Assembly (NCBI RefSeq): GCF_019375555.1
Contig: NZ_JAHXDN010000001.1
Span: 1,093,501 to 1,157,500 of the forward strand
Direction of reading: 5' to 3'
Length of the DNA stretch: 64,000 nucleotides
Source of the DNA: Roseobacter insulae
Lineage (GTDB): Bacteria; Pseudomonadota; Alphaproteobacteria; Rhodobacterales; Rhodobacteraceae
Position 1 is the first letter of the stretch, and the number at the start of each line of letters is the position of its first letter. The notes beneath the pieces were generated by a model. It was not told the origin of the DNA, did no database searches, and worked only from the letters and a program-made list of their open reading frames with translations. Of this stretch, positions 1,479-62,963 are shown in pieces. The translations under genes were made by a program, and so were the position numbers.

Positions 1479-1585
1479 GACTTCCTCCCTGAATGTCATT
1501 TATTGAGACTATTAGTCCCAAAAAACACTAGTATAGTATTCCCTTTTTGCATAGACTTTTTTTCAACTTGGTTTGGGAGGTCGCA
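1479..1585. promoter_or_regulatory. Divergent promoter region of the TRAP and GMC oxidoreductase genes
   Basis: This AT-rich 107-bp region separates two divergent genes. It holds a perfect 11-nt palindrome, GACTATTAGTC at 1507-1517, and about 20 bp further on a related ACTAGTATAGT element at 1527-1537. Two similar sites two helical turns apart in a shared promoter suggest an operator for one regulator of both genes. No regulator gene lies next to it inside the window, so this rests on pattern only. Confidence 0.4.
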
Positions 1586-3181: not shown

Positions 3182-3283
3182 GGCTGCAAGATACGGCGCC
3201 GGTCCGGCCCAGGGTAGTGTGCTGTGTTGAAAATCGCTCTTTGCTGAAACGCACTGGGCGGTAGCGCATTGTCTTCCCGGCCC

Positions 3284-3323
3284 GTTTGCACGTAGCTTGC
3301 GTAAAAAAGTGGCAGGTGCAAAC
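3284..3323. promoter_or_regulatory. Inverted repeat upstream of the reductive dehalogenase gene
   Basis: Perfect 8-bp arms GTTTGCAC (3284-3291) and GTGCAAAC (3316-3323) are 32 bp apart centre to centre, close to three helical turns. They end 33 bp before the start codon. There is no T tract, so it is not a typical terminator. An operator for a regulator of the dehalogenase is a reasonable guess. Confidence 0.4.
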
Positions 3324-3356
3324 CCGCCCGGAAAAGACGCTTGAGGAGGCGCGAGA

Positions 3357-6300: not shown

Positions 6301-6566
6301 ACCATCCCTTTACGATCAAGCTGAAGGACGGCCGCAATATCATCGTTCCCGCAGACCGGTCCGCGGCTGATGTGCTGGTGGAGCAGGGTTTCAAGGTGGA
6401 CATCAAATGCGCTGACGGTATCTGCGGCGTGTGCAAATGCGGTTTGGTGTCGGGAGACGTGGAACACCGCGATTTCGTTCTGTCCAAAGCGCAAAGAGAC
6501 ACGAATATCATCCTTTGCCAGTCCCGCGCAGCCTCGAAGGATGGCGAGATCGAGATCGACCTCTGA
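3357..6566 (+). CDS. Self-sufficient reductive dehalogenase fused to an NAD(P)H reductase
   Basis: This 1069-residue protein matches the domain order of catabolic, oxygen-tolerant reductive dehalogenases such as NpRdhA and BhbA. Residues 1 to about 750 contain two related halves (both have a LGW/YxAKAHT motif near a TTxMPxxHD/E motif). The second half ends in two 4Fe-4S sites, Cys558/561/564/568 and Cys594/607/610/614. From about residue 750 follows a ferredoxin-reductase-like part with RQYS (803-806) for flavin and GGGIGITP (866 on) for NAD(P)H, then a plant-type 2Fe-2S domain with Cys1018/1023/1026/1054. There is no Tat leader, unlike respiratory enzymes, so it should be cytoplasmic. The expected reaction is corrinoid-dependent removal of halogen from an aromatic such as a halophenol. 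A strong site (GAGGAGG) precedes the ATG. Confidence 0.9.
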   Translation: MSFRFFSTRNRAPHLGPYPLERLVRGEMPDLTGLPPFRALDFRRPDVPVSIVNAMGEYQATMDAIRDGMVNTSRATCPDNLQERANHLKSFGYFNDASMVGVGPLPPSALLSQPLRNPDIDRLAEELRTKQIKTLASGIDVIMADLRDSMTAPPSTIVDHAHAIVFLYEMPRDPKTGEAGTDWIKDAQAHRACLRATETAVVLANYIRLLGWDAKAHTATSSDVNLDHLTVATGLACIEDGTLVNPYIGTRFGVAALTTTMPLAHDKPLAPMRAQTWLRTNRPAWWVGKGSEKSAFNKDPFGGRDFALGPHPFERLKRVDKPTTYIDEGNVARVPKRTDMFARAQFGDMGKATQEGAAGAYYARKAAPSMAQRRMLGAFVLFQDGPSSDGPRPDDARRNAANIKAACYFLGVDAVGLSRCPDWTWYSHDATGAPLEPPHDQAISMIIDQGFDTMEGASGDDWISVAQSMRAYLRFSLLGGIIARQIRNLGYKAKAHTVMDGEVLQPPLLLLSGLGEVSRIGEVILNPFLGPRLKSGVVTTDMPMEHDRPIDFGLQKFCESCNKCARECPSGAITAGPKLMFNGYEIWKSDSQKCATYRITTPGGAMCGRCMKTCPWNLEGLFAEKPFRWAAMNIPKAAPALAKLDDTLGHGGLNPVKKWWWDIALTEDGGYHPVRRPVNERDLQRDLDLKYEDQTLAVYPASLAPHPWPYPFPMDREAGIEAYQAMITADEYRSRKAAGETGAWDHKYITSADSPVLQVEIIQADPLTDSITRYRFRAVDGGDLPGWSAGAHLDIVVTPDKLRQYSMCGDPSDRPCYEIAVLREPQGKGGSELLHRIFSAGRKIFVSRPINHFPVEECASHSILMGGGIGITPMIAMAHELHHASKPFDLHYSVPSRSAGAFIRDLADMPWADRVHLHISDEGTRADLDNILSGYQPGWHVFTCGPDAYMKAVVTAAERAGFPEDACRLEYFTVPDVPEYENHPFTIKLKDGRNIIVPADRSAADVLVEQGFKVDIKCADGICGVCKCGLVSGDVEHRDFVLSKAQRDTNIILCQSRAASKDGEIEIDL

Positions 6567-6657
6567 CCGCGACCTTCACAAAAGTGATATGGAACTGTCA
6601 TGCCCGTGTGTCTTGAAGCTGCCTCTTTGCGGCATCTCAAGATCGATGGAGTTTCCA

Positions 6658-8832
6658 ATGAACAAAAACCTGCTGCTGACCAGCACGCTGCTTGCCGGTG
6701 TGGCGATGTCTCCTGCTTCTGCAGAGATGAATTTCAACCGAATTGCGTCATTTCCGGTGGCGTCGAACTTTGACGGCGATGTGCCCGAAGAAACCTCTGC
6801 CGAGATCATCGATGTCACCAGCGACGGCATGACGCTCGTCTACACCGACAGCCCTGCGGGTGTGATCGGCGTTATTGACATTTCAGACCCCATGGCCCCG
6901 GCACCAAAAGGGACATTGTCATTGACCGGCGAACCCACGGCGGTTTCGGTCATCGGCTCGACTGCTTTTGTCGCGGTCAACACCTCGCAAAGCTACGCGG
7001 CACCCTCGGGCATGATCAAAGCGATTGACCTGGACGACATGACCGAGACCGCGTCTTGCGATCTGGGAGGGCAGCCCGACAGTACCGCACGTGCGCGGGA
7101 TGGATCCTTCATTGCCATTGCGATCGAGAATGAACGCGATGAAGATCTTGGCGATGGCCGTGTGCCGCAGATGCCCGCGGGCGACCTGGTGATGATCGAC
7201 ATCTCTGACCGCACGCTTGATTGCGGCTCGTTGCGGCGTGCGTCGCTGGCGGGTCTGGCGGATGTCGCAGGTTCCGACCCCGAGCCGGAGTTTGTCGATA
7301 TCAACGCGCTTGGGGAAGTCGTTGTGACACTTCAGGAAAACAATCACATCGCGGTTGTGGCCAAGGACGGCACGGTGCTGTCGCATTTCTCGGCTGGCGC
7401 TGTTGACCTGGAGGGGATCGACACAACTGACGAGCGGGGCGCGCTGATCTTTGACCAAAGCCAGCCCGGTCGTCTGCGTGAACCTGACGGTGTCCAGTGG
7501 ATCGACGACGACCATTTTGCCACTGCGAACGAGGGTGACATGGATGGTGGCGCACGCGGGATGACCGTTTTTCGCAAGGATGGGACCGTGGTGTGGGAAA
7601 GTGGCGCCTCGCTGGAACATGCAATCGTTCAGATCGGTCACTACCCGGACAAACGCTCCGACAGCAAGGGCGCCGAACCCGAGGGGATGGAATTCGCCAC
7701 CTTCGATGGCACACCCTATATATTCGTCATGGCCGAGCGCGCATCGATCGTCGCGGTGTATGATGTGACCGACCCGACAGCACCGGTGCTGAAACAGCTT
7801 CTTCCCTCGGGCATTTCCCCGGAAGGCGCTGTTGCGATCCCGCAGCGCGGCTTGCTGGCCACAGCCAACGAGTTCGACGGGCTGCAGGACGGTGCGGCGC
7901 GGGCACATGTCATGCTGTACCAATACACGGACGCCCCTGCCGCCTACCCGCACCTGACTTCGGAAGGCATGGATGAGTTAACCGGCTGGGGTGCAATTTC
8001 GGGCATGGTGGCCAGTGCCGATGGCATGATCTATGCCGTTTCAGACAGCTTCTACGGTTACCAGCCGCGTATCTTCAAAATCGACCCCACCGCAACGCCG
8101 GCCCGCATCGTCGATGTGCTTGATGTCACGCGCAATGGCGTGCCAGCGCAAAAGCTAGACATGGAGGGTATCGTTCTTGATGGGCAGGGGGGGTTCTGGA
8201 TTGCATCGGAAGGCCGCACAGACCGGGTTGTTCCTCATGCTCTCTACAATGTGGATGCCAAGGGGGCGATCACGAAGGAAGTTGGCCTGCCGCCGGAATT
8301 GATGGCCGTTGAGAAACGCTTCGGCTTCGAAGGTATTACCCTGGTGGTCAACACGTTGTGGATGCCGGTGCAGCGCGAATGGAAGGATGACCCGAAAGAT
8401 CACGTGAAGCTTGTTGCCTACAATCTGCAAACAGAAGAGTGGGGCGCGGTGCTTTATCCCAAGGCCTCTGCCGCAACAGGGTGGGTCGGCCTGAGCGAAA
8501 TGAGCCTTTACGGTGATCGTGTTTACATCATCGAACGAGACAACCAGCATGGCAACGCAGCGGTGACCAAAAGAGTCTACGCCGTTCCACTTGCCGATTT
8601 ACAGCCCGCACCGCTGGACACTGACCTGCCGGTCGTGTCGAAAACACTGGTCCGCGACCTGCTCCCCGATCTGACATCGACAGGGGGTTACGTTCTGGAC
8701 AAGGTCGAAGGGTTGGCCATCACGCCGGATGGCAGGGGCTGGATTTCGACAGACAACGACGGGGTCGACGATCATTCGGGTGAGACGATGTTTGTCACCA
8801 TCGGCGCGGTCACGGAAACAACCGTGAACTAA
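6658..8832 (+). CDS. Secreted phytase-like esterase family protein
   Basis: This 724-residue protein has a clear Sec signal peptide ending SPASA at residue 22. It has repeated beta-propeller-like segments (VIDISDP, IDATPARI) and a C-terminal region of the esterase-like phytase type, with MEGIVLDGQGGFWIASE and WISTDNDGVDD. Members of this family are often annotated as alkaline phosphatase or esterase-like, and the true substrate is uncertain. The start at 6658 was chosen because the mature protein and signal peptide follow directly from it. It lies 91 bp after the dehalogenase gene on the same strand, but nothing shows that they share a function. Confidence 0.75.
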   Translation: MNKNLLLTSTLLAGVAMSPASAEMNFNRIASFPVASNFDGDVPEETSAEIIDVTSDGMTLVYTDSPAGVIGVIDISDPMAPAPKGTLSLTGEPTAVSVIGSTAFVAVNTSQSYAAPSGMIKAIDLDDMTETASCDLGGQPDSTARARDGSFIAIAIENERDEDLGDGRVPQMPAGDLVMIDISDRTLDCGSLRRASLAGLADVAGSDPEPEFVDINALGEVVVTLQENNHIAVVAKDGTVLSHFSAGAVDLEGIDTTDERGALIFDQSQPGRLREPDGVQWIDDDHFATANEGDMDGGARGMTVFRKDGTVVWESGASLEHAIVQIGHYPDKRSDSKGAEPEGMEFATFDGTPYIFVMAERASIVAVYDVTDPTAPVLKQLLPSGISPEGAVAIPQRGLLATANEFDGLQDGAARAHVMLYQYTDAPAAYPHLTSEGMDELTGWGAISGMVASADGMIYAVSDSFYGYQPRIFKIDPTATPARIVDVLDVTRNGVPAQKLDMEGIVLDGQGGFWIASEGRTDRVVPHALYNVDAKGAITKEVGLPPELMAVEKRFGFEGITLVVNTLWMPVQREWKDDPKDHVKLVAYNLQTEEWGAVLYPKASAATGWVGLSEMSLYGDRVYIIERDNQHGNAAVTKRVYAVPLADLQPAPLDTDLPVVSKTLVRDLLPDLTSTGGYVLDKVEGLAITPDGRGWISTDNDGVDDHSGETMFVTIGAVTETTVN

Positions 8833-51322: not shown

Positions 51323-52567
51323 ATGGAAGTGCTCGACCAATTCCTGTCCAACGCCCTCGCAAGTGATTTCTTCGCTGGCGGTCTAGCGCTCGGGGCTTTC
51401 GGGGTCGCGGCGGCTTTTTTGCGGGCCGTGCTGCTTGCTCTCTATCAAGCCGTCAATCGGCGCGTGTGGGTCAGTCTGACGCTCGACAACCGCAGTGCTG
51501 CCTATCGCCACCTTTGCATCTGGATGGAGCAAAACAGCATTCTGTCCCGCTCCCGTCATGTTCGTATGACGGACGGCAAATGGGCGCGCGGCACGAAAGG
51601 CTATGCGCCTGCTCCGGGTCGGCATTGGTTCTTCTGGCGTGGAAAGCTCTGCCGTCTGGAGCGTGATATTGACGAAAAATCGAAAGTCGGAGCCGCTCAG
51701 AATCAACGCCCTATGGAAGTGCTGCATGTCACTGTTTTGCTCGGGAAGGTGCAGACCATTCTTGTTTGGATCACCGAGGGGCGGGAGATTGCCCAAACCA
51801 GGGACCGGATCGGCCCCGGCCTCCATGTTCTGAAAGGAGATTGGTGGGATCATGTCGGCGATGTCCCGCGCCGTTCCGTCGACACGGTGCTGGTGGATGA
51901 TGACCGTATCGAGATTGTGCTGGACGACATGCGATGGTTTTATGGCGCCAGAAACTGGTACGCTGAACGCGGTGTTCCATGGCGGCGGGGGTATCTGTTT
52001 CACGGTCCGCCGGGCACGGGCAAGTCGAGCGTCATTCGCGCGCTGGCGTCTGAATTGTCACTGGATATCGCCACGCTGGATATCGGGCGTGCTACACAGA
52101 CGGACGATGATCTGCGTGAAGCGATGATCTGTGCCCCCAAGGGGTCGCTGATCGCAATCGAAGATGTAGACGCCCTTTTCACACAACGCGAAGGCGGGGA
52201 AAAACGCTCGGGCGTCAGCTTCTCGGGCTTGCTCAATGCCATCGATGGCGTCGCAGCTCAGGAGGGTCGTGCCTTGGTCATGACCACGAACCACAAGGAA
52301 AGACTGGACCCGGCCCTCATCCGCCCCGGCCGCGCCGATGTGCACACCGAGCTTGGATTGGTGAGCGCAGCAACGGCGCGTCGATTTTTTGAACGTTTCT
52401 TCCCCGGTGAACGCGACTTGGCCGGGGCATTCGAACGGAGGTTGGGGGAACAAAGACACAGCCCCGCCCAGATACAGGGTTGGCTTTTGGCCAACAGCGC
52501 CGATCCATATGCAGCTGCGCAAGCCTCAGGGCTTGAATGCCGTCCGCAAGATATTGCAGCAGAATGA
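51323..52567 (+). CDS. BCS1-like AAA ATPase with N-terminal membrane helix
   Basis: This 414-residue protein has one membrane helix near the N-terminus (residues about 17-40), a BCS1-type middle region (LHVTVLLGKVQTI, WYAERGVPWRRGYLFHGPPGTGKSS) and an AAA core. Walker A is GPPGTGKSS at about 227, Walker B is LIAIEDVDALF, and the arginine-finger region is RLDPALIRPGRADVH. BCS1 in mitochondria translocates a folded iron-sulfur protein; bacterial relatives are uncharacterised. It sits inside the RNA-repair island, convergent with rtcR. Confidence 0.85.
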   Translation: MEVLDQFLSNALASDFFAGGLALGAFGVAAAFLRAVLLALYQAVNRRVWVSLTLDNRSAAYRHLCIWMEQNSILSRSRHVRMTDGKWARGTKGYAPAPGRHWFFWRGKLCRLERDIDEKSKVGAAQNQRPMEVLHVTVLLGKVQTILVWITEGREIAQTRDRIGPGLHVLKGDWWDHVGDVPRRSVDTVLVDDDRIEIVLDDMRWFYGARNWYAERGVPWRRGYLFHGPPGTGKSSVIRALASELSLDIATLDIGRATQTDDDLREAMICAPKGSLIAIEDVDALFTQREGGEKRSGVSFSGLLNAIDGVAAQEGRALVMTTNHKERLDPALIRPGRADVHTELGLVSAATARRFFERFFPGERDLAGAFERRLGEQRHSPAQIQGWLLANSADPYAAAQASGLECRPQDIAAE

Positions 52568-52605: not shown

Positions 52606-54168
52606 CTATATCGCGCCCCATTCCAAGTCGAACTTACCCAAATATTTCCTCAACCTGTCCGCATCATTCTGGGTTTTGCGTTTGCTTCGTGACACGGCAA
52701 ACAGGGTGCGCCCAGCGGCACTCAGGCTTGAAGAATTTCGGCAGATCCGGATCACCTGTGCCAACTGCACAAGGTCGAACGGGTCCACATCAGACACCGC
52801 ATCGCCCATCACATCAGCAACCAGCTTGAAATCATCATTGGACTGAGCCGATTTCCAATCCGCTTGAAGCGTCTGGATTTCAGTTATGACCATCGGCCTC
52901 GTAATCCGACCCCGTGGTGCAAGCGTACACAGCCGACGGATCGAGCTGGAGAAGTCCCGGAAGTTTCCCGGCCAACGTGTTGCGGGGTCTTTTGCGAAGT
53001 CCAGATAATTCTCACGGGCATTGGCGTTGAAACCAACATGTGTGCCCAGATCCCTTTCGCATCGACCCAGCTCGTGTAGCAGATTTGCCTCTATGTCCTC
53101 GGGGCGGGTGCGCAGGGCAGGCAAGGTAAAGCTCCATGTGTTCAAGCGGGCCAGCAGGTCTTGGCGAAAGTGTCCCAAGGCGGTCAAGCTGCGCAGATCA
53201 CGGTTTGCACCGGCAATCAGGTGAAATCGGCTTGAGATTTCGTGGTCAGAACCCAGCGGATAGAAGCGCCCGGTTTCGATCGCATGTAGCAAGACCGATT
53301 GCATGTTGGGATTCAGTTCGTCGACATCATCCAGAAACAGTAGTCCGCCATCAGCCTCGCGCAGCAAGCCGCTCCGCTCGGTCCCTGCAGCCCCAAGGTA
53401 GGAACGGCGCTGGCCGAACAGTGTTGCCATGGCATCGGGCCCATTCAATGTCGCGCAGTTCACATGGACGAGGCGGCCCTTGATGCGGCGCCGATCAAGC
53501 TTGAGGCTGTGAATGCGCTCGGCCAGCTCCGTCTTTCCCGTGCCGGTTTCTCCGAGCAGAAGGATGGGTTCGTCAGAGTTGCTGGTGACAAGCTCAACTC
53601 GGTCGATCAGATCGTTGTATGCCAGGTTTCGTGTCTTGATCCCCCCTTTCAACTGATCGCTATGCTCACGCGACAATTGGTCAAACCGTTGTTGCAATGC
53701 GTTGTAGCGACTTAGATCAAGGTCAATGACGTCAAACTTTGGCGTTTCCTCCTCCGGCCCCGGTGGGCCGGTTTGGATCAGATGGGCAGGAACGTGGCGG
53801 CTTTCCGTCAGCAGAAACCAGCAAATCTGAGCCACATGCGTTCCCGTGGTCAGGTGCACGTGATACCGTTCGCGGTCATCGTCAAATCCATAGGAACGGG
53901 CAAAGTCGAAAAGCTTGCCATAGACTTCCTGAAAATCCCACGGGTCATTCAGGTCAAGCTGCTGAAGCAGAACCTCTGTATCAGGCGACGCTTCCTTGAT
54001 CTCGCGCTGAACCCGCTTGGCAAGACGATTGAACCGCATGTCAAAAAGTATCTCGAGCCGATCCACCTTGAAGTGGTCGTGACTGACAAGGCTTAGCGTC
54101 GGCTTCCACCGGCGTTTCTTCCCCATGTCGAGCTGGGTGCCAAGAAAGCCAATCACAACGTTTTTCAT
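52606..54168 (-). CDS. rtcR: RtcR-type regulator with CARF domain and altered GAFTGA loop
   Basis: Activator of RNA-repair genes. The N-terminal CARF-like RtcR domain (residues 1 to about 180; VVIGFLGTQLD, HVHLTTGTHVAQICWFLL) is thought to sense RNA ends. The AAA+ domain has Walker A GETGTGKT (206-213) and Walker B LLFLDDVDEL. The C-terminal helix-turn-helix (LSAAGRTLFAVSR, DADRLRKYL) is intact. In E. coli RtcR the sigma-54 loop reads FGHVKGAFTGA; here residues 251-261 read FGQRRSYLGAA, so the GAFTGA motif is lost while the length is kept. It diverges from the Ro60 gene. Confidence 0.92.
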   Translation of the reverse strand: MKNVVIGFLGTQLDMGKKRRWKPTLSLVSHDHFKVDRLEILFDMRFNRLAKRVQREIKEASPDTEVLLQQLDLNDPWDFQEVYGKLFDFARSYGFDDDRERYHVHLTTGTHVAQICWFLLTESRHVPAHLIQTGPPGPEEETPKFDVIDLDLSRYNALQQRFDQLSREHSDQLKGGIKTRNLAYNDLIDRVELVTSNSDEPILLLGETGTGKTELAERIHSLKLDRRRIKGRLVHVNCATLNGPDAMATLFGQRRSYLGAAGTERSGLLREADGGLLFLDDVDELNPNMQSVLLHAIETGRFYPLGSDHEISSRFHLIAGANRDLRSLTALGHFRQDLLARLNTWSFTLPALRTRPEDIEANLLHELGRCERDLGTHVGFNANARENYLDFAKDPATRWPGNFRDFSSSIRRLCTLAPRGRITRPMVITEIQTLQADWKSAQSNDDFKLVADVMGDAVSDVDPFDLVQLAQVIRICRNSSSLSAAGRTLFAVSRSKRKTQNDADRLRKYLGKFDLEWGAI

Positions 54169-54343: not shown

Positions 54344-55900
54344 ATGGCGAACAAATCCGTGTTTGCATCGATCAAAGGCCGGTTGCTGCCGAAAGCGACT
54401 GCAAGAAATGCCCACGCGGCACCGGCCTACGCTTACTCCGATGCCCATGCCCTGGCGCAGGTCGCTGTTACCGGCACTTTCGGGGGTATGTTCTATCAGT
54501 CGCCGCAGGAAGAACTGGAATATGTTCTGGACGTGGCCGAATCCGTTGACCCGCGCTATCTGGCGCAAGCGGCCATCTATGCCCGCCGTTCGGGCTACAT
54601 GAAAGATATGCCTGTCGTGTTGCTGGCTGTTCTGGCTCGGCGTGATCCGGTCCTGTTCCGTGCGGTGTTTGCCCATTTGGTCAACAACGGCAAGATGCTG
54701 AGGACTTTTGTACAGGTTGTCCGTTCTGGCCAGACTGGTCGTAAATCACTGGGTTCTGCCCCCAAGGCTATGGTGCAGAACTGGCTGAATACCGCGCCTG
54801 ACCTGGCGATCCTGAATGCCAATATCGGTAACGACCCGTCTCTGGCGGACGTAATCAAGATGGTGCACCCGAAACCGGCGTCGGCCGAGCGCGAAGCCCT
54901 CTTTGCCTGGATTGTCGGGCGGCCATGCGACCTGTCTCTATTGCCGCAGGCGGTGCAAGACTGGATGGCGTTCAAAGAAACCGGCAAGGGTCCGGTGCCT
55001 GATGTGCCGTTCCAGATGCTGACGCAGCTGGATCTGTCCTCGGCACATTGGGCGCGGATCGCGCGCAAGGGCTCGTGGCAGATGGTGCGCCAGAACCTGA
55101 ATACGTTTCAACGTCACGGCGTTTTCGGCGTGACCAAGAACGTGGATCACGTGGCGGCATTGCTGCGTAACCCCGAGGCGATAGCCAAGGCACGTGCGTT
55201 TCCGTACCAGCTGATGGTGGCGGCGCAGAACGTGAACAGCGAGATGCCACGCCCGATCGTGGACGCCCTGTATGATGCGATGGAAATCGCGGTGCAAAAC
55301 GTGCCGAAGATCGCGGGTCAGGTTGTGATCTGCCCGGACGTATCCGGGTCGATGACCCGGGCTGTGACCGGGTATCGCCCGGGGGCAACCTCGGTCGTGC
55401 GCCATGTGGATGTAGCAGCACTTGTGGCCGCGTCATTCCAGCGTGTGAACCGTGGGTGCCAGGTTCTGCCGTTCGATTTCGGCGTGCGCGATGTACGTCT
55501 GGAGCCGCGCGATACGATCCTGACGAACGCCGAGCGTTTGGCCGATCTGGCGGGCGGTGGGACAAACTGTTCCGCGCCGCTGAAATGGCTGAATGAGCGT
55601 GGCAGGTCACCTGATCTGGTGGTGTTCGTCTCGGACAACCAATCGTGGCTGGATGCCCGCAACGGCGGTCAGGGGACGGCGATGTTGAAAGAGTGGGAAG
55701 TGATTGAGCGTCGCAACCCGATGGCCAAACTGGTCTGCATCGACATCGCGCCTTACGGGACCACGCAAGCGCAGACGCGCGAAGACGTGCTGAATGTCGG
55801 TGGCTTCTCGGATGCGGTCTTTGACCAGATCGCGGGCTTTGCCTGCGGTCAGACCGGCCCGGACCACTGGGTTGGCGAGATCGAGAAGATCGACGTGTAA
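54344..55900 (+). CDS. rsr: Ro60-like TROVE domain protein
   Basis: Ring-shaped RNA-binding protein of 518 residues. The N-terminal TROVE HEAT-repeat ring (residues about 20-330; AQAAIYARRSGYMKDMPVVLL) binds misfolded RNA and Y RNA. The C-terminal von Willebrand A domain has a MIDAS site (CPDVSGSM). In bacteria Ro60 with Y RNA forms an RNA quality-control or degradation complex with PNPase. The start at 54344 (MANKSVF) follows AGGAACGAAGAA; an upstream ATG at 54305 is weaker. The Y-RNA array follows directly, then rtcB. Confidence 0.95.
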   Translation: MANKSVFASIKGRLLPKATARNAHAAPAYAYSDAHALAQVAVTGTFGGMFYQSPQEELEYVLDVAESVDPRYLAQAAIYARRSGYMKDMPVVLLAVLARRDPVLFRAVFAHLVNNGKMLRTFVQVVRSGQTGRKSLGSAPKAMVQNWLNTAPDLAILNANIGNDPSLADVIKMVHPKPASAEREALFAWIVGRPCDLSLLPQAVQDWMAFKETGKGPVPDVPFQMLTQLDLSSAHWARIARKGSWQMVRQNLNTFQRHGVFGVTKNVDHVAALLRNPEAIAKARAFPYQLMVAAQNVNSEMPRPIVDALYDAMEIAVQNVPKIAGQVVICPDVSGSMTRAVTGYRPGATSVVRHVDVAALVAASFQRVNRGCQVLPFDFGVRDVRLEPRDTILTNAERLADLAGGGTNCSAPLKWLNERGRSPDLVVFVSDNQSWLDARNGGQGTAMLKEWEVIERRNPMAKLVCIDIAPYGTTQAQTREDVLNVGGFSDAVFDQIAGFACGQTGPDHWVGEIEKIDV

Positions 55901-55906
55901 AAGAAA

Positions 55907-55983
55907 GGGTCAGGCGGAATGCCTGTGGGACTACATTTTTAGGTAATGTCACCGTCTCACAATCAGACTTGTCCGCCGGACCC
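55907..55983 (+). ncRNA. Y-RNA-like unit 1 (short)
   Basis: A 77-nt element has 5' strand GGGTC-A-GGCGGA pairing with 3' strand TCCGCC-G-GACCC. Inside it is the shared Y-like motif GAATGCC...GGGACTACAT on the 5' side and CTTGTC on the 3' side. It begins 6 bp after the Ro60 stop. The same motif pair returns in three more units, and the position next to the Ro60 gene supports a Y RNA. Confidence 0.7.
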
Positions 55984-56012
55984 ATCCGAAACGAAACAAA
56001 GAGGAACGAACA

Positions 56013-56136
56013 TCGCGTTTAATGCTGGCTTGGCGGGGGCACGATCAGAGGAACTTGGCGATCCGACTCCGTGACTCTTGCGGGCGCTCTCTGGCATGGG
56101 CGGGACCTTATACCGCCACGTCTGCATTAAACGCGA
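56013..56136 (+). ncRNA. Structured element closed by a perfect 13-bp inverted repeat
   Basis: TCGCGTTTAATGC (56013-56025) and GCATTAAACGCGA (56124-56136) can close a 124-nt RNA that contains internal hairpins (for example GGCGG...CCGCC near 56099-56116). It lies between Y-like units 1 and 2, and has no coding potential that I trust. It may be part of a larger transcript or a separate small RNA. Confidence 0.5.
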
Positions 56137-56143
56137 AACATCT

Positions 56144-56292
56144 CGGCGAATGCCGAAGGAACTACATGGCACCAAACCGGAACAGGTCGAGCGGGTTCAA
56201 CTCCCCTCCTTGCCTGCGCCCAGATGGCAAACGCATCTGTTCATTCGGATGCGGGGCGGGCCTCCCACCTGTTTCTTCACCCCTTGTCGCCG
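56144..56292 (+). ncRNA. Y-RNA-like unit 2 (long, with T-arm-like hairpin)
   Basis: A 149-nt element has CGGCGA at the 5' end pairing with TCGCCG at the 3' end. The Y-like motif GAATGCC...GGAACTACAT and the 3' CTTGTCGCC are present. The interior has a T-arm-like hairpin, GGG-TTCAACT-CCC at 56193-56205 (the loop matches TTCRANY), and a CAGATG/CATCTG hairpin. The size and modules resemble bacterial YrlA-type RNAs, which carry tRNA-like domains. Confidence 0.65.
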
Positions 56293-56305
56293 CGACTCCA
56301 CATAT

Positions 56306-56380
56306 TCGGTTGTAGCTCAGCGGTAGAGCGCCTGATTGTTAATCAGGATGTCGCAGGTTCGATCCCTGCCAGCCGAGCCA
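56306..56380 (+). tRNA. tRNA-Asn(GTT), CCA end encoded
   Basis: A full 75-nt cloverleaf: 7-bp acceptor stem (one G-U), 4-bp D stem (GCTC/GAGC), 5-bp anticodon stem with loop TTGTTAA (anticodon GTT), 5-nt variable loop, 5-bp T stem with loop TTCGATC, discriminator G and encoded CCA. It lies 13 nt after Y-like unit 2 and 18 nt before unit 3, on the same strand. The fold looks sound, so it is probably functional. Confidence 0.93.
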
Positions 56381-56398
56381 AAATACGAAAGGAAAGAT

Positions 56399-56473
56399 CC
56401 GGGGGAATGCCCGTGGGAGTACATCGCTTGAAACGACCGCCGAAAGGCCTCTCACGAACTTCTTGTCCTCCGG
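56399..56473 (+). ncRNA. Y-RNA-like unit 3 (short)
   Basis: A 75-nt element has CCGGGGGA pairing (one G-U) with TCCTCCGG. The motif GAATGCC...GGGAGTACAT and 3' CTTGTC are kept. In size and layout it copies unit 1. It carries no tRNA-like hairpins. Confidence 0.68.
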
Positions 56474-56480
56474 CCCCAAA

Positions 56481-56616
56481 CAGTCACGGCGAATGCCGGT
56501 GGAACTACATGAATCAATCGGTCGCGGGTTCGAGGCCCGCCATCGCTTCCCGCGATGTAGCTCAGGTAGGCAGAGCAGTTGAAAATTGTTTCGCCAACCT
56601 CTTGTCGCCGCGACTG
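56481..56616 (+). ncRNA. Y-RNA-like unit 4 (long, with permuted tRNA-like module)
   Basis: A 136-nt element closed by CAGTC-A-CGGCGA / TCGCCG-C-GACTG, with the motif GAATGCC...GGAACTACAT and 3' CTTGTCGCC. The interior holds tRNA parts in permuted order. A perfect T arm (GCGGG-TTCGAGG-CCCGC, 56524-56540) comes first, then an acceptor-like stem closed by a short loop (CATCGC-TTCCC-GCGATG, 56541-56557). Next are a D arm (GCTC...GAGC) and an anticodon-like arm with loop TTGAAAA. This is the architecture described for YrlA-type bacterial Y RNAs. The unit ends 18 bp before the rtcB start. Confidence 0.75.
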
Positions 56617-56634: not shown

Positions 56635-58053
56635 ATGATGAGTGACGAAAATACAAGCTACCCAGTGACCGGGACGCATTTGAAAGATTGGGGGCACCGC
56701 CCCGGCAAGCAATTCCCAGCGCTGTTGGCGCGGGCCAATGAAATGCGCGCCGATGGGTTTGGGCTGATGCGTATCCGGCAGGAACTGGAAGGAGAAATCC
56801 CGCCCGCGCCGGTCACGATGGATTTGCGCGCCCCCGGCGAAGTGCCGTTTTACGAAAACATCGACGTGGGCCATCCGGACGAAGATGACAACCTCTCCAA
56901 AGTGCGCGAAACCATGAAGGCGTTGATGCGTACACCCACAATCGCTGCCGGCGCCATCATGCCGGATGCCTGCCCAGCCGGGCCTGTTGGCACGATCCCG
57001 GTTGGTGGCGTGGTAGCTGCGCGCAATGCGATCCATCCGGGGATGCATTCGGCTGACATCTGCTGCTCCGTCATGATCTCCGATTTGGGAAACGCCGACC
57101 CGAAGGCTGTGCTGGACGCAGCACAGTCGGTTACGCATTTCGGCCCAGGCGGGCGCCCGCAGGGCAAGCGGTTCACAACGTCGCTAAATCTGATGGATGC
57201 GTTCCGGGAAAATCCGTTTCTGGACAACCCGAAGTCGTTGCGCATGGCGCAGGAGCATATGGGCACTCAGGGTGACGGAAACCATTTTCTGTTTGTCGGA
57301 CGCTCGCGCAAGACCGGACGTACGGCGATCGTGACCCATCACGGGTCGCGGGGGCCAGGGGCCGTTCTCTATAGACACGGGCTGCATGTGGCTGAAAAGT
57401 TCCGCAAGCAACTGTCGCCCGAGACCGCGAAACAGAACGCCTGGATCCCGGCAGATACCGAAGAGGGTCGCGATTATTGGGATGCACTGCAACTCATTCG
57501 CAAATGGACCAAGGCCAACCACAATGCCATCCACCAGGCGACAGTCGAGGCCGCGCGCCTGGGCGACGTGGGCGAGCGGTTCTGGAACGAGCACAACTTC
57601 GTCTTCAAACGCGGCGATATCTATTACCACGGCAAAGGGGCGACGCCTGCCTGGGATGGGTATGCGTCAGATGCAACGGGGCTCACACTAATTCCCCTGA
57701 ACATGTCCGAGCCGGTGCTTGTCGTGCGCGGTAAGGACGCCGACCATGGTTTGGGCTTCAGCCCGCACGGTGCGGGGCGCAATTTCTCGCGGTCTGAACA
57801 CAAACGCCGGATGGGATCGGTCACACCCGAACAGATGCTGAAGGCGGAAACAGAAGGTCTGGACGTGCGATTTCATGCCGGTGGCGTGGACGCTTCGGAA
57901 CTGCCGTCGAGCTACAAAAACGCCGACAATGTGGTTGCCCAGATCAAATCCTTCGATCTGGCCGAGATCGAAGACTACATCGACCCCTATGGCTGTATCA
58001 TGGCGGGTGATGTACCGCCGTTCTGGCTAAATAAGAAGAAAGGCCGCCGGTAG
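56635..58053 (+). CDS. rtcB: RNA-splicing ligase RtcB
   Basis: GTP- and manganese-dependent ligase that joins 2',3'-cyclic phosphate or 3'-phosphate ends to 5'-OH ends. The 472-residue protein has the metal site in MHSADICCSVMI (usually GxDIGCGM), QGDGNHF, HHGSRGPGA, the guanylylated histidine in YYHGKGATPAW and the terminal YGCIMAGD. It is longer than E. coli RtcB (408) and belongs to a separate branch. ATG-ATG at 56635 and 56638 are both possible starts after GTGAGATAG. No rtcA (cyclase) is present in the window. Confidence 0.93.
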   Translation: MMSDENTSYPVTGTHLKDWGHRPGKQFPALLARANEMRADGFGLMRIRQELEGEIPPAPVTMDLRAPGEVPFYENIDVGHPDEDDNLSKVRETMKALMRTPTIAAGAIMPDACPAGPVGTIPVGGVVAARNAIHPGMHSADICCSVMISDLGNADPKAVLDAAQSVTHFGPGGRPQGKRFTTSLNLMDAFRENPFLDNPKSLRMAQEHMGTQGDGNHFLFVGRSRKTGRTAIVTHHGSRGPGAVLYRHGLHVAEKFRKQLSPETAKQNAWIPADTEEGRDYWDALQLIRKWTKANHNAIHQATVEAARLGDVGERFWNEHNFVFKRGDIYYHGKGATPAWDGYASDATGLTLIPLNMSEPVLVVRGKDADHGLGFSPHGAGRNFSRSEHKRRMGSVTPEQMLKAETEGLDVRFHAGGVDASELPSSYKNADNVVAQIKSFDLAEIEDYIDPYGCIMAGDVPPFWLNKKKGRR

Positions 58054-58192
58054 TCGCCGGCGACCTTTTCCACCTATCTCTTGGGCGGGCATTGGGTTCC
58101 AACCCCAAATACACATCGACTGTGGCTGCCTTCTTTCCGACCAGATTGGCATTTATGCCTTACATATCAAAACGTTCTTGATTGAGCTTATT

Positions 58193-59590
58193 ATGCAGAT
58201 CGAAATCACCCTTACCGCGCCCACTGATGCCGACTACGCCGCGAGTGACCTGGGCTTTTTGCTGCACAAGCATCCTGACCACGTGCATGCGCGGGAAACG
58301 TCGGCTGGCGAAGTCACTATTTTCTATCCCGAGAATTCGCGTGAGTGCACAACGGCGGTACTACATCTCGATGTCGATCCAGTTGGTCTGGTGCGGGGGA
58401 AAAACCAGCATAGCGATGGTTTGTTGGCGCAATACGTGAACAACCGACCTTTTGTCGCGAGCTCTTTTCTGTCGGTTGCGATGGGACGAGCCTTTGCCCA
58501 GACGATGGCTGGAAAATCCAAGGACCGGCAGGCCTTGGCCGACCGTGCCCTGCCGTTCTCAATCCGTGTTGTGCCTGTTGCCCTTTCGGGTGACTTGGAA
58601 TTGGTAAAACGGCTGTTCGAGCCTTTGGGTTACTCCGTTCTCTCTCCGTCAGAGATTGGCGAAGAACAGGTCGTCGATCTGCGTCTGTCCGCAACACTGC
58701 GTCTCGCTGACATTCTCAGGCATTTTTATGTGCTTTTTCCCGTCCTTGATAACTTCAAACACTACTACGTGAGCGAAGAAGAAATAGACAAGCTTCTGGC
58801 CAAGGGTGAAGGATGGTTGTCCGATCATCCGGACAAAGAGCTCATAACGCGCCGCGCATTGAAGCACCGCAGGTCACTGATGAACATGGCTCTTGCCCGC
58901 CTCGAAGAGACAGCCCCGCAGGAAGAGGAACCAGAAGACGCCCCGAAGCTGAAACCGGAAGAGCAGCTTGAAAAGCCCATGCGCCTGCATGATTTGCGAC
59001 TGGATACCGTGGCCGAGGTGCTAAAACAGCACCATGTCACGTCGGTCCTCGATCTGGGATGCGGTGAAGGCAAGCTGATGTCGCGGCTCATCAGGGAGCG
59101 AGGGCTGACGCGGATTGTTGGTGTGGATCCGTCCGTAAGAACTCTGGAAACGGCGCATCGCAAGCTGCGGCTACATCAGGCCGGGGACGCCATGAAGGAG
59201 CGGATATCACTGCAGATGGGCAGCCTGACATATGGGGACCGGCGCTGGCAGGGATTTGACGCGGCAACGCTGGTCGAGGTGATCGAACATATCGAACCGC
59301 ACCGCCTGTCGGCCCTTATTCTGTCACTCTTTGCCGATGCCCGCCCTCGCATGGTGGTGATGACGACGCCCAACAGGGAATACAATGTGCTGTTCGAAGG
59401 ACTGGAGGATGGCAAGATGCGCCACCCCGATCATCGGTTTGAGTGGACCCGCGCGGAATTTGAAACCTGGTCCAACACCGTGGCCAGCGAACATGGCTAC
59501 GTCGTCAGCTTCGCGCCCTTGGGCCCTGAGGATGAAACTCATGGTGGCCCATCGCAGATGGCAGTGTTCAAACAGGAGGGTACTACATGA
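58193..59590 (+). CDS. 3' terminal RNA ribose 2'-O-methyltransferase Hen1
   Basis: Methylates the 2'-OH at the 3' end of a cleaved RNA before sealing, so the repaired site cannot be cut again. The 465-residue protein has the bacterial N-terminal ligase-activating domain (residues 1 to about 250) and a C-terminal methyltransferase with the SAM motif LDLGCGEG and the metal-binding motif EVIEHIEPHR (Glu-x2-Glu-His-x3-His). The start at 58193 matches the family; five upstream codons are unsupported. It overlaps the nucleotidyltransferase gene by four bases. Confidence 0.93.
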   Translation: MQIEITLTAPTDADYAASDLGFLLHKHPDHVHARETSAGEVTIFYPENSRECTTAVLHLDVDPVGLVRGKNQHSDGLLAQYVNNRPFVASSFLSVAMGRAFAQTMAGKSKDRQALADRALPFSIRVVPVALSGDLELVKRLFEPLGYSVLSPSEIGEEQVVDLRLSATLRLADILRHFYVLFPVLDNFKHYYVSEEEIDKLLAKGEGWLSDHPDKELITRRALKHRRSLMNMALARLEETAPQEEEPEDAPKLKPEEQLEKPMRLHDLRLDTVAEVLKQHHVTSVLDLGCGEGKLMSRLIRERGLTRIVGVDPSVRTLETAHRKLRLHQAGDAMKERISLQMGSLTYGDRRWQGFDAATLVEVIEHIEPHRLSALILSLFADARPRMVVMTTPNREYNVLFEGLEDGKMRHPDHRFEWTRAEFETWSNTVASEHGYVVSFAPLGPEDETHGGPSQMAVFKQEGTT

Positions 59591-60411
59591 GCCTGCCTGC
59601 ATTCACCCCGTCTGTTGCGCCGGATATCGAGGCGGTGATCCAATCCAAGTTGACTGCATTGGAGGCCGATCATGACGTGCGCATCCTCTTCGCCATCGAA
59701 AGCGGTAGCCGGGCCTGGGGATTTCCGTCACCTGACAGCGATTTCGATGTGCGGTTTGTTTATACGCACCAGCCTGACTGGTACCTGAGTATCGAGCCGG
59801 GTCGAGACGTCATTGAACTGCCCATCGAAGGGGATTGGGACATCAATGGCTGGGACATTCGAAAGGCGCTTGGCTTGCTGATCAAGCCCAACCCCGTGAT
59901 GTTGGAATGGCTGTCGAGCCCGATCCGGTATCGGTGGAACGATGCAGTGTGCGACCGTCTGATCCGATTTGCCGACAAGACGACGTTTGGTGAATCCTGT
60001 GTTCATCACTATCGTAACTTGGCGGTAAAACAGTGGGACAGCCATGTCGGGGATAACTCCGATGTGTCTTTGAAAAAATACTTCTACATCCTGCGGCCCG
60101 CTCTGGCGATTTCGTGGATCAGGCAAAATCCCTCGGTTCAACCGCCGATGAACCTGCAGGCGCTTGTTGACGGTCAGTTTCTGGATCAAGAACTCGTCGC
60201 GCACATTGATCGGCTATTGGTCTTGAAATCCGCCGCCAAGGAAATAGGGCGTGGCGCACGTATCCCGATGATTGATGCATTCATCTACGATCAGATTGCC
60301 TGGGCTGAGGTCGTGGCAAAACGAGATGATCGGCCGGACTTGATGACCGAGGGTGACGAGATGTTGCGTTCGATCGTAAGCGGTGAGAGCTTTGAAGGAA
60401 GTGCCGTATGA
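59587..60411 (+). CDS. Nucleotidyltransferase (COG3541-like) between Hen1 and Pnkp
   Basis: This 274-residue protein has the polymerase-beta-type motif SGSRAWGFPSPDSDFDVRF (Gly-Ser, then Asp-x-Asp) and a helical C-terminal region. It overlaps hen1 upstream and pnkp downstream by ATGA junctions, so it is made together with them and very likely takes part in the same RNA repair. Addition of nucleotides to a damaged 3' end or a signalling role are both possible; the sequence does not decide. Confidence 0.85.
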   Translation: MSLPAFTPSVAPDIEAVIQSKLTALEADHDVRILFAIESGSRAWGFPSPDSDFDVRFVYTHQPDWYLSIEPGRDVIELPIEGDWDINGWDIRKALGLLIKPNPVMLEWLSSPIRYRWNDAVCDRLIRFADKTTFGESCVHHYRNLAVKQWDSHVGDNSDVSLKKYFYILRPALAISWIRQNPSVQPPMNLQALVDGQFLDQELVAHIDRLLVLKSAAKEIGRGARIPMIDAFIYDQIAWAEVVAKRDDRPDLMTEGDEMLRSIVSGESFEGSAV

Positions 60412-62963
60412 CCAAGATTGCCATCCCGGATTTCTCGCTTGTTGTCCTGATCGGCGCCACCGGCTCAGGTAAGTCCAGCTTTGCACGAAAGCACTTTCTC
60501 GAAACTGAAATCGTGTCTTCGGATGCCTGTCGCGCCATTGTCTCGGACGATGAGACCGATCTTGCTGCGACAAGCGATGCTTTTGATCTGCTCAACCACA
60601 CCGCAGCCATTCGTCTAAAGCGCAGACTGGTGACGGTAATTGATGCCACGTCGGTGAAACGCGAGGATCGGGCAAAGCTTGTGCAACTGGCGCGCAAATA
60701 TCATGCACTTCCCGTGGCGCTGGTGCTCGATATCGATCCGAAGATTTGCCATGAACGCAATCAGAACCGCTGTAACCGGGACTTTGGCGAACACGTGACG
60801 CGCAATCATGCAAAGGCACTCAAGCGTGGTTTGCGTGGTCTGCAGAAGGAAGGCTTCCGCCAGGTCCAGATCATGAAATCCCCCGGGGAAGTGAACGCGC
60901 TGGAGATTACCCGCGAGCCCCTCTGGACGGACAACCGCGCCGATCATGGTCCTTTCGACATTATCGGTGATATCCATGGTTGCTTTGAGGAACTGACCGA
61001 ACTGCTCGGAGAACTCGGATACTCGGTCGATCCGTTTAAAGCCGATTCCGAAGACTTGATCCGCGCCCGCCATCCGGAGGGCCGCATTGCGTTCTTTGTT
61101 GGCGACATTACCGATCGTGGTCCACGCAATCTGGATGCGTTGCGGCTCGTGATGGGCATGTGCGATGAAGGTTCTGGCCGTTGTGTGATCGGCAATCACG
61201 ACTTCAAACTGAACAAATGGTTGAAGGGCCGCAGCGTGACGCAGACCCATGGGCTGGACCTGACAGTTGCCGAGCTTGAAAAAACTTCGGAGGCGTTCCG
61301 CAAGAAGGTTTCGGATTTCATCTGGGATCTGCGCTCTCATGCCTGGCTGGCCGATGGCAAGCTGGTCATTGCCCATGCCGGACTGAAAGAAGAGATGCAC
61401 GGGCGCGGCTCTGGTCACGTACGCGACTTCGCCATGTTCGGAGAAACAACCGGCGAGGTCGACGAATTTGGTTTGCCTGTGCGCCTAGAATGGGCGCGAG
61501 ATTACCGTGGCAAAGCGGATGTCGTTTTTGGTCACACGCCGATGGCTGAGGTCGAATGGCTGAATCATACGATGTGTATCGACACAGGGTGCGTCTTTGG
61601 CGGCAAACTGACAGCCTTGCGCTGGCCTGAGCGGGAAACTGTTTCTGTCCCGGCGAAAACCCAATACGCGGTTCCGGCAAAACCTTTGGATGCAAGTCAA
61701 TCCCTTTCCGCGCAACAGGACCATGACCGCCTGCTCTATTTCGACGATTATGCAACCAAGATGCGAATCGAAACCCGGTTCAAATCCACCTTGCAGATCC
61801 CCGAGGAAAACAGCCTTGCCGCGCTGGAGGTCATGAGCAGATTTGCTGTCGATCCACGGTGGCTGATCTACCTGCCTCCGACAATGGCTGCGTGCCCGAC
61901 GGCTACAGAAGGCCCGTTCCTGGAGCATCCCGATCAGGCGATGGATCATTTTGCCAGCCGGGGTGTGACGGACTTGGTTGTCGAAGAAAAACACATGGGG
62001 TCGCGTGCCTTGCTGGTGGTCGCCAGGGACGCGGCCGCAGCCCAGGCCCGGTTTGGCGTGGAAGACAGCAAAGCTGGTGTGATCTATACACGCACTGGAC
62101 GCCCATTCTTCAAAGATGATGCCGAAGAAGCTGCAGTTGTTGCGCGGATGGGAAAAGCGATGCAATCAGCAGGCCTGTGGGAAGAGCTTCATACCGATTG
62201 GGTTCTACTTGACGCAGAACTCATGCCTTGGTCCGCCAAGGCACAGGACTTGCTCAAACGGCAATATCTACCAACTGTGGCAGCAGCAAAATCATCTGCT
62301 TTGGCGCTGCTGGAGGCAATCGCAAAAGCCGGGAAACTTGAGGGGCTGAAAGCGCTTCGCTCACGCACTGAAACTCAGTTTTCCAACGCGGAACTGATGG
62401 GGCAGACAATTGATGGATACTGCTGGGACGCGGACAGCATCGAAGACTATCGCATTGCACCGTTTCACATCCTGGCGACCGAAGGCAACGTCCATGCTGA
62501 TCAGCCTCATACCTGGCACATGGAAACACTGGGCAAGCTGGCCAAAGCCGATCCGATCCTGCAAACGACCGGCTGGAAACGAATTAACCTGGATAGCGAG
62601 GCTGATCGTGACGCGGTTGTCAAATGGTGGACGACACACACCGGCAGCGGCGGAGAGGGGCTGGTATTCAAGCCCAACGCATTTTCCCTGCGTGGCGACA
62701 AAGGTATGATCCAACCGGCAATGAAGGTGCGCGGGCGCGATTATCTTCGGATAATTTATGGTCCCGACTATGACCTGCCCGAGAATATCGAGCGCCTCCG
62801 CCAACGGGGACTTGGACGTAAATTCTCGCTTGCCGAAAGGGAGTTTAAGCTTGGTTTCGAAGGGTTGCACCGTTTTGTGGACGGGCTTCCGCTGTGCAAG
62901 GTGCATGAGTGTGCATTGGCGGTGCTTGCGCTGGAAAGTGAACCCGTTGATCCAAGATTGTAG
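60408..62963 (+). CDS. Polynucleotide kinase-phosphatase-ligase Pnkp
   Basis: End-healing and sealing enzyme of 851 residues, close to the 870 of the Clostridium thermocellum enzyme. The 5'-kinase domain has GATGSGKSSF (residues 17-26). The 2',3'-phosphatase is of the metallophosphoesterase type (GDIHGCFEE, GDITDRGP, GNHDFKL). The C-terminal adenylyltransferase domain has the lysine motif VEEKHMGSRAL. It is the last gene of the hen1-nucleotidyltransferase-pnkp set and would form the Pnkp-Hen1 complex. All catalytic motifs are intact. Confidence 0.94.
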   Translation: MTKIAIPDFSLVVLIGATGSGKSSFARKHFLETEIVSSDACRAIVSDDETDLAATSDAFDLLNHTAAIRLKRRLVTVIDATSVKREDRAKLVQLARKYHALPVALVLDIDPKICHERNQNRCNRDFGEHVTRNHAKALKRGLRGLQKEGFRQVQIMKSPGEVNALEITREPLWTDNRADHGPFDIIGDIHGCFEELTELLGELGYSVDPFKADSEDLIRARHPEGRIAFFVGDITDRGPRNLDALRLVMGMCDEGSGRCVIGNHDFKLNKWLKGRSVTQTHGLDLTVAELEKTSEAFRKKVSDFIWDLRSHAWLADGKLVIAHAGLKEEMHGRGSGHVRDFAMFGETTGEVDEFGLPVRLEWARDYRGKADVVFGHTPMAEVEWLNHTMCIDTGCVFGGKLTALRWPERETVSVPAKTQYAVPAKPLDASQSLSAQQDHDRLLYFDDYATKMRIETRFKSTLQIPEENSLAALEVMSRFAVDPRWLIYLPPTMAACPTATEGPFLEHPDQAMDHFASRGVTDLVVEEKHMGSRALLVVARDAAAAQARFGVEDSKAGVIYTRTGRPFFKDDAEEAAVVARMGKAMQSAGLWEELHTDWVLLDAELMPWSAKAQDLLKRQYLPTVAAAKSSALALLEAIAKAGKLEGLKALRSRTETQFSNAELMGQTIDGYCWDADSIEDYRIAPFHILATEGNVHADQPHTWHMETLGKLAKADPILQTTGWKRINLDSEADRDAVVKWWTTHTGSGGEGLVFKPNAFSLRGDKGMIQPAMKVRGRDYLRIIYGPDYDLPENIERLRQRGLGRKFSLAEREFKLGFEGLHRFVDGLPLCKVHECALAVLALESEPVDPRL

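Follow-up and report, generated by a model that had tools for sequence, protein, structure and literature searches.

The DNA analyzed here, a stretch of 64 kb that we call the window throughout, contains an RNA repair operon in which the genes for Ro60 and the RNA ligase RtcB are separated by an array of structured RNAs (Table 1). According to the gene order in the window, rtcR lies upstream of the Ro60-rtcB operon and is divergent from it. The Ro60 start at 54344 gives the conserved MANKSVFAS, with a longer open reading frame possible from 54305, and the protein is 50-93% identical to those of its relatives. By its nearest Ro60 relatives, the host probably belongs to the Rhodobacterales. Between Ro60 and rtcB, the array reads short Y RNA, RNA X, long Y RNA, tRNA-Asn, short Y RNA, long Y RNA. 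The original prediction had proposed four Y-RNA-like units between the two genes. Sequence inspection with a script recovered all four close to where they had been placed, but the tRNA-Asn gene and RNA X had been overlooked. Upstream of rtcR, Pfam also identified an RNA ligase (PF09414, 49302-50138) and a BCS1-like AAA protein (51323-52564), which perhaps belong to the same repair neighbourhood as the rtcR operon.

Table 1. Features of the RNA repair operon in the window (positions are those of the window)
Feature	Position	Strand	Evidence
RtcR-type regulator (RtcR domain and AAA sigma-54-activator domain)	52606..54168	-	Pfam RtcR 1.4e-72, Sigma54_activat 4.7e-37
Ro60 / TROVE protein	54344..55900	+	Pfam vWA_Ro60 1.4e-14, TROVE 4.3e-05
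Y RNA unit 1 (short, no tRNA-like module, YrlB-like)	55907..55983	+	YrlB 23.8 bits and alignment
RNA X (fifth structured RNA, between units 1 and 2)	56013..56136	+	Inverted repeat, alignment
Y RNA unit 2 (long, tRNA-mimic core like that of X, extra hairpin)	56141..56295	+	YrlA 23.5 bits and alignment
tRNA-Asn(GUU) gene, encoded CCA	56306..56380	+	ARAGORN; Rfam tRNA 71.7 bits
Y RNA unit 3 (short, no tRNA-like module)	56399..56473	+	25-sequence alignment
Y RNA unit 4 (long, YrlA type: T-arm, acceptor-like hairpin, D-arm)	56483..56614	+	Rfam YrlA
RtcB RNA ligase	56635..58053	+	Pfam RtcB 2.9e-34
Hen1 3'-terminal RNA methyltransferase	58178..59590	+	Pfam Hen1_L 1.3e-83
RlaP RNA-repair nucleotidyltransferase	59587..60411	+	Pfam RlaP 3.2e-81
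Pnkp RNA end-healing and ligase enzyme	60408..62963	+	Pfam PNKP_ligase 9e-154, AAA_33, Metallophos

Y RNA units and RNA X

Units 1-4 are encoded beside the Ro60 gene (54344-55900, Pfam), and each carries GAATGCC on its 5' strand, CTTGTC on its 3' strand and complementary ends. The predicted description of these strands and ends thus held for all four, with two small departures: unit 3 has AGTACAT where units 1, 2 and 4 have CTACAT, and the closing helix of unit 1 contains a single mismatch (A-G). A Ro60-type stem with GAAUGC/CUUGUC boxes and a closing helix is present in every unit, and we take the box-containing stem to be the Ro60-binding site. Units 2 and 4 contain a tRNA-like module with T-arm and D-arm, which units 1 and 3 lack. 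This difference had been correctly noticed, but the idea that it might give the short units another role has to be seen against an arrangement already known, as the short yrlB gene lies beside the long yrlA gene in the Salmonella rsr-yrlBA-rtcBA operon (PMC7790460). The Rfam model of YrlB is likewise short (78 positions), and the short units of the window resemble this known kind.

The covariance-model search that had been suggested gave a divided result: unit 4 exceeded the threshold of Rfam YrlA (75.3 bits, gathering score 69), but unit 2 matched YrlA weakly (23.5 bits, gathering score 69), unit 1 matched YrlB weakly (23.8 bits, gathering score 97) and unit 3 had no Rfam match up to an E-value of 5. 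A strict script, for which both boxes had to lie 35-200 nt apart together with a closing helix, found units 1-4 and one further place on both strands of the 64 kb, the latter inside the Ro60 gene and with a weaker helix (54806-54915). In 20 first-order Markov sequences of 64 kb the script yielded 0-2 matches on one strand (mean 0.55). Applied to 81 Ro60-rtcB intervals, one from the window and 80 from relatives, it detected 289 units, compared to none in one Markov version of each interval.

Compensatory changes were found in 7 of 18 predicted pairs for unit 1 (28 sequences), 11 of 40 for unit 2 (22 sequences), 5 of 20 for unit 3 (25 sequences) and 6 of 32 for unit 4 (20 YrlA-type sequences), in hand-picked groups and on structures predicted from the same alignments. 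The groups for units 1 and 3 were both drawn from 77 short units, those for units 2 and 4 comprise 22 of 23 and 20 of 21 listed members, and the last contains other YrlA-type units besides counterparts of unit 4. Shuffle controls cover unit 1 and RNA X. The covariation score of unit 1 was reached by none of 500 shuffles and its number of further pair types was matched by one of 500, while slid partners scored far lower. Based on the Ro60-type stem, the compensatory changes in relatives and the YrlA score of unit 4, units 1-4 look like bacterial Y RNAs, in agreement with the original proposal of Y-RNA-like units.

Two other expectations were not borne out. A set of four had been considered unusually rich, yet among 80 relatives, counted by a script less strict than that of the Markov comparison, four is the commonest number of Y units per interval (23 loci); none were counted in 4 loci, one in 3, two in 11 and three in 15, and between five and seven in 24 (five in 15, six in 6, seven in 3). 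The alternation of short and long units had been attributed to duplication of a short-long pair, but the best matches of each unit are its positional counterparts in other genomes. For unit 1, the counterpart is the short unit that comes first in other arrays (up to 97%), and for unit 3 the short unit that mostly lies 3' of tRNA-Asn (up to 97%). The nearest matches of unit 2 are long units (146-159 nt). Those of unit 4 are the final units of seven other arrays, followed by other YrlA-type units. As each unit has its own counterparts elsewhere, a recent pair duplication can be ruled out; the four are old, separate members, and any duplication is old.

RNA X, located between units 1 and 2, has 24-nt arms that pair into a long helix enclosing a T-arm-like and a D-arm-like hairpin. 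The T-arm-like loop reads UUCGACU in relatives, while the copy in the window has two mismatches in the T-arm stem and one change in the loop. Relatives of X were found at 11 other loci (73-92% identity). In an alignment of the window with 10 of these 11 sequences, 11 of 42 pairs showed compensatory changes, and none of 500 shuffles reached any of five measures. A model built for X also matched eight Y-type units at other loci on the plus strand (E below 0.01). Five of them (L047, L009, L052, L076, L075) have GAATGC and TTGTC without change, and three (L082, L078, L089) have variants. The core of X, a tRNA mimic, therefore appears to be common to X and a class of Y RNAs. In X, the Ro60 internal loop appears to have given way to an unbroken helix. 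Since X lacks a Ro60-type stem with boxes, we did not file it as a Y RNA. X occurs at a single place in the host genome (150 of 2579 first-look candidates scored), and we rejected a dispersed repeat on the same grounds.

tRNA genes in Ro60-rtcB intervals

The tRNA-Asn gene of the window lies between units 2 and 3 and has a complete cloverleaf with GUU anticodon, G73, CCA and paired stems. A misread YrlA module was rejected, because this is a separate complete gene that begins about 10 nt 3' of unit 2. Its anticodon loop contains U32, unlike the housekeeping loop.

To describe this site in relatives, we used 80 loci, the best of 535; they are related to each other, so that counts are not independent. 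We limited the interval to 2500 nt, or to 1400 nt at loci for which no rtcB was found, and rtcB with over 50% identity lies downstream in 61 of the 80. ARAGORN called a tRNA inside the interval of 43 loci, or 41 after two calls were dropped as Y sequence, a tRNA-Asp in L089 whose letters start with the Y 5' box and a tRNA-Gly in L094 inside a Y unit. These 41 relatives have one to three tRNA genes each, 61 in total, which belong to four kinds (Asn 21, Gln 16, Lys 12, Pro 12); L029 has one further call of undetermined type, outside the 61. The genes are concentrated in the intervals, with 64 calls (three of them dropped or left undetermined) in 84,129 nt inside versus 12 in 903,401 nt outside at the 80 loci. 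An all-against-all comparison of the leftover gaps gave one large uninformative cluster, probably due to the inclusion of long tails past the array.

The examined intervals of the other 39 relatives contain no accepted tRNA. A first sample of 146 relatives contained six other genomes with a Ro60 match, three of which have an adjoining tRNA (Asn in L009, Gln in L010 and L011); calls of tRNA-Asp (94 nt, L010) and tRNA-SeC (89 nt, L011) were set aside for their likeness to Y modules. An even sample of the phylum (398 genomes, few candidates per genome scored) contained 12 others with Ro60, eight of them with Y units by the strict script and none with a tRNA within 1.5 kb. The tRNA is therefore not essential to the operon, as judged from the 39 relatives and the phylum sample. 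On the Ro60 tree, the presence of tRNA requires 18 changes, 14 of them forced by well-supported branches, compared to a shuffled mean of 27, which indicates that descent accounts for part of it and that gain or loss is frequent. The same four kinds persist despite this turnover, and related genomes share both the kind and its site.

Of 54 viral loci that encode Ro60, some on contigs that are near-copies of each other, 33 had one or more tRNA genes in the sequence retrieved, and in four (L164, L184, L190, L196) Y units lie within 40 nt of tRNAs. The viral contig L196 has a long tRNA array beside its Ro60 gene (about 963-7115), in which Y-like units alternate with tRNAs and linkers are nearly absent; the Y-tRNA junctions listed measure -1 to 4 nt, except for one tRNA call of undetermined type inside a Y unit. 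Some jumbo phages are described to encode a TROVE protein, whose cellular partner is tRNA-like (PMC7824862), and for one Listeria phage, Y RNAs have been suggested to lie close to its tRNA genes (PMC12282133).

Tight spacing raises the question of whether a tRNA at this site serves mainly as a processing signal, where cuts by RNase P and RNase Z/E would free the flanking Y RNAs, the upstream one at its 3' end and the downstream one at its 5' end. Mitochondrial transcripts are punctuated by tRNAs in this way. At the named loci, 49 of 58 Y-tRNA junctions (including those of the two dropped calls) span 2-15 nt, and the short junctions of L196 fit this explanation as well. Nevertheless, we consider it unlikely: most pairs of adjacent Y units are separated by comparably short linkers that contain no tRNA, 39 of the 80 loci do without an accepted tRNA, and processing explains neither the limit to four kinds nor why anticodons and discriminator bases are kept.

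Operon tRNAs and their housekeeping counterparts

Of 21 genomes with an operon tRNA-Asn, namely those of 20 of the 21 named loci with this gene plus L009, 17 also contain the housekeeping tRNA-Asn of the host (L098) at 96-100% identity. The four genomes without it (L016, L037, L053, L076) are all metagenome-assembled; three gave divergent tRNA-Asn matches alone and one gave none. The search also returned partial near-identical matches, for example in G156, G154 and G164. The 22 operon tRNA-Asn copies, including that of the window, are 64-83% identical to the host housekeeping gene. Operon Lys copies are 67-74% identical to the housekeeping gene and 88-99% identical to the first operon copy, with one at 74%. 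Given the near-constancy of housekeeping tRNA-Asn across genomes versus the distance of the operon copies from it, the operon tRNAs are, by sequence identity, divergent paralogues that form a separate stock.

Of the 62 operon tRNAs (window included), 60 encode CCA and 45 have a fully paired acceptor stem, while 11 of the remaining 17 share a Lys mismatch. The anticodon stem has five paired positions in 54 and four in eight, and stem differences from the housekeeping copy are paired changes. Aminoacyl-tRNA synthetases read the discriminator base and the anticodon. The discriminator is G in 21 of 22 Asn copies (in L029, the one exception, ARAGORN shifted the boundary), A in 11 of 12 Lys and in all 12 Pro copies, and G in 11 or A in 5 of the 16 Gln copies. 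The anticodon loop equals that of the housekeeping copy in 17 of 22 Asn, 8 of 12 Lys and 13 of 16 Gln copies, and three further Lys loops differ in the anticodon alone. By these features the operon tRNAs look like working tRNAs. With loops mostly unchanged, a nuclease that reads the loop alone would cut many of both copies. The tRNA of L076 (659-734 after the Ro60 end) has an Asn anticodon with an acceptor stem and D-arm like those of operon tRNA-Gln, for which an anticodon switch or recombination is possible.

Some features are odd for tRNAs used in translation. Unpaired C2-A71 occurs in 11 of 12 operon Lys copies, all 12 operon Pro copies (L039, L042, L043, L058, L059, L061-L063, L067, L071, L072, L077) have A37 where housekeeping tRNA-Pro has G37, and three of them (L039, L042, L061) lack U33. 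The unusual Pro loops, together with the T-arm- and D-arm-like hairpins in X and in units 2 and 4, would suit a role of the tRNA, X and the tRNA-mimic Y RNAs as bait or inhibitors of an anticodon nuclease, for which translation would not be needed. A decoy would have no need of charging identity bases and anticodon, yet these are largely kept, and YrlA fragments were undetected in Salmonella, which indicates that YrlA is not cut there (PMC7790460). We find this explanation quite improbable.

The tRNA genes could also be passengers, perhaps derived from phages, that recombine into the array through the likeness of Y RNA and tRNA and have no special role. The tRNA-Asn of the window shares 79% identity with the host's own and 84% with the tRNA-Asn of Agrobacterium phage OLIVR5, a small difference on 75 nt that makes a phage origin a weak suggestion. 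In OLIVR5, tRNA-Asn lies directly before tRNA-Gln (1 nt), as it does in L058-L061 and L063 (4 nt), and the frequent gain and loss noted above would fit passengers. The OLIVR5 tRNA-Gln is no closer to the operon genes (50-62%) than to housekeeping tRNA-Gln (62%), and a plasmid search gave partial, more distant matches, mostly to Rhizobium. Passengers should decay, but stem changes are paired and CCA is encoded nearly throughout; nor would they be expected to comprise just four kinds among 61 tRNAs or to recur with matching kind and site among related genomes. An origin as mere passengers is in our view doubtful, to about the same degree as the decoy.

Regulation and possible function of the array

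The RtcR of the window has SYLGAA in place of the sigma-54 contact motif GAFTGA, and a search of the 350 nt upstream of Ro60 found no match to a -24/-12 promoter. The GAFTGA loop is likewise changed in 69 of 77 relatives with readable RtcR, the change being slight in L071 (GAFAGA) and L072 (GAFSGA). The other eight relatives have GAFTGA or GSFTGA, and all eight have a match to TGGCAC-N5-[CT]TGC upstream of Ro60. A TGGCAC-type -24/-12 match was found in none of the 69 relatives with a changed loop; weaker pattern matches were found in L040, L045, L046 and L082. The host genome does encode sigma-54 (rpoN). Judged from these motifs, RtcR here has probably switched to another sigma factor and would work without sigma-54.

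In Salmonella, RtcR binds 5' tRNA fragments with 2',3'-cyclic phosphate, and tRNA fragments turn the operon on; survival of mitomycin C treatment was described as better with active RtcR and worse without RtcR (PMC7790460). Both operons have a divergent RtcR gene, Ro60, Y RNAs and RtcB (PMC7790460), but the operon in the window continues after RtcB with Hen1, RlaP and Pnkp and contains tRNA genes, and RtcA was not among the eight window proteins scanned with Pfam. With GAFTGA missing from the window RtcR and a -24/-12 promoter from the 350 nt searched, in contrast to Salmonella, induction of the Salmonella type cannot be assumed.

The Y RNAs resemble YrlA and YrlB (RF02553, RF02565) in their position next to Ro60, the GAAUGC/CUUGUC stem, the T-arm/D-arm mimics of the long units and the pairing of short with long, known from Salmonella yrlB-yrlA (PMC7790460). 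They differ in that units 1-3 remain under the Rfam thresholds, that up to seven members occur per locus in relatives, mixed with tRNA genes, and that X keeps the mimic core and not the Ro60 site. Two other systems offer parallels for the tRNAs. Phage tRNAs counter anticodon nucleases (PMC10264068) and, like those described here, are divergent extra copies; one of the kinds described here, tRNA-Lys(UUU), is a target of PrrC (PMC10264068). Unlike the phage copies, the tRNAs described here are chromosomal, lie in a repair operon and have mostly unchanged loops in Asn, Lys and Gln. Anabaena has a stress-inducible trn operon whose repressor TrcR also controls rtcB, a second tRNA gene set tied by regulation to RtcB (PMC10272220); it comprises 26 tRNAs on a megaplasmid, and the part of that report available to us mentions neither Y RNA nor Ro60 (PMC10272220).

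Starting from the observed array, its RNA structures and their conservation, and the recurring divergent tRNAs for Lys, Asn, Gln and Pro, we infer a function. We propose, at about even confidence, that the region 55907-56616 is the non-coding part of a tRNA-damage operon that would co-produce repair enzymes, Y RNAs and spare tRNAs. The proposal draws on the concentration of tRNAs in the interval, their restriction to four kinds, their working-tRNA features and their separation from the housekeeping paralogues, as well as on the precedents of Salmonella RtcR, phage tRNAs, the Anabaena trn operon and the viral Ro60-tRNA loci. The intervals devoid of a tRNA, the many unchanged anticodon loops, the odd Lys and Pro features and the altered RtcR speak against it. 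In such an operon, tRNA cleavage would lead RtcR to turn on a single transcript from upstream of Ro60, comprising Ro60, the Y RNAs, X, tRNA-Asn and RtcB, then Hen1, RlaP and Pnkp. The transcript would be processed by RNase P at the tRNA and by other RNases elsewhere. Ro60 and the Y RNAs may sort damaged tRNA or help its degradation, while RtcB and Hen1-Pnkp would repair cut tRNA and the array would replenish whichever isoacceptor runs short most often. With its altered anticodon stem, the extra tRNA may be cut less readily by the nuclease.

An extended version of this proposal, tentative and in our estimate more likely wrong than right, would hold that repair operons of Rhodobacterales and some phages carry interleaved Y RNA-tRNA arrays with dedicated, nuclease-tolerant spare tRNAs, the kinds of which would name the natural targets of the anticodon nucleases that these bacteria encounter. 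X would then be a Ro60-free tRNA mimic with a second task, for example nuclease inhibition or RtcR signalling.

In the literature that we searched, we came across no mention of tRNA genes within Ro60-Y RNA-rtcB operons. The arrays form a natural series, with 0 to 3 tRNAs, 0 to 7 Y units and with or without X. By encoding certain tRNAs itself, an operon would indicate the ones involved, and the mixed arrays may thereby show which tRNAs the repair system serves.
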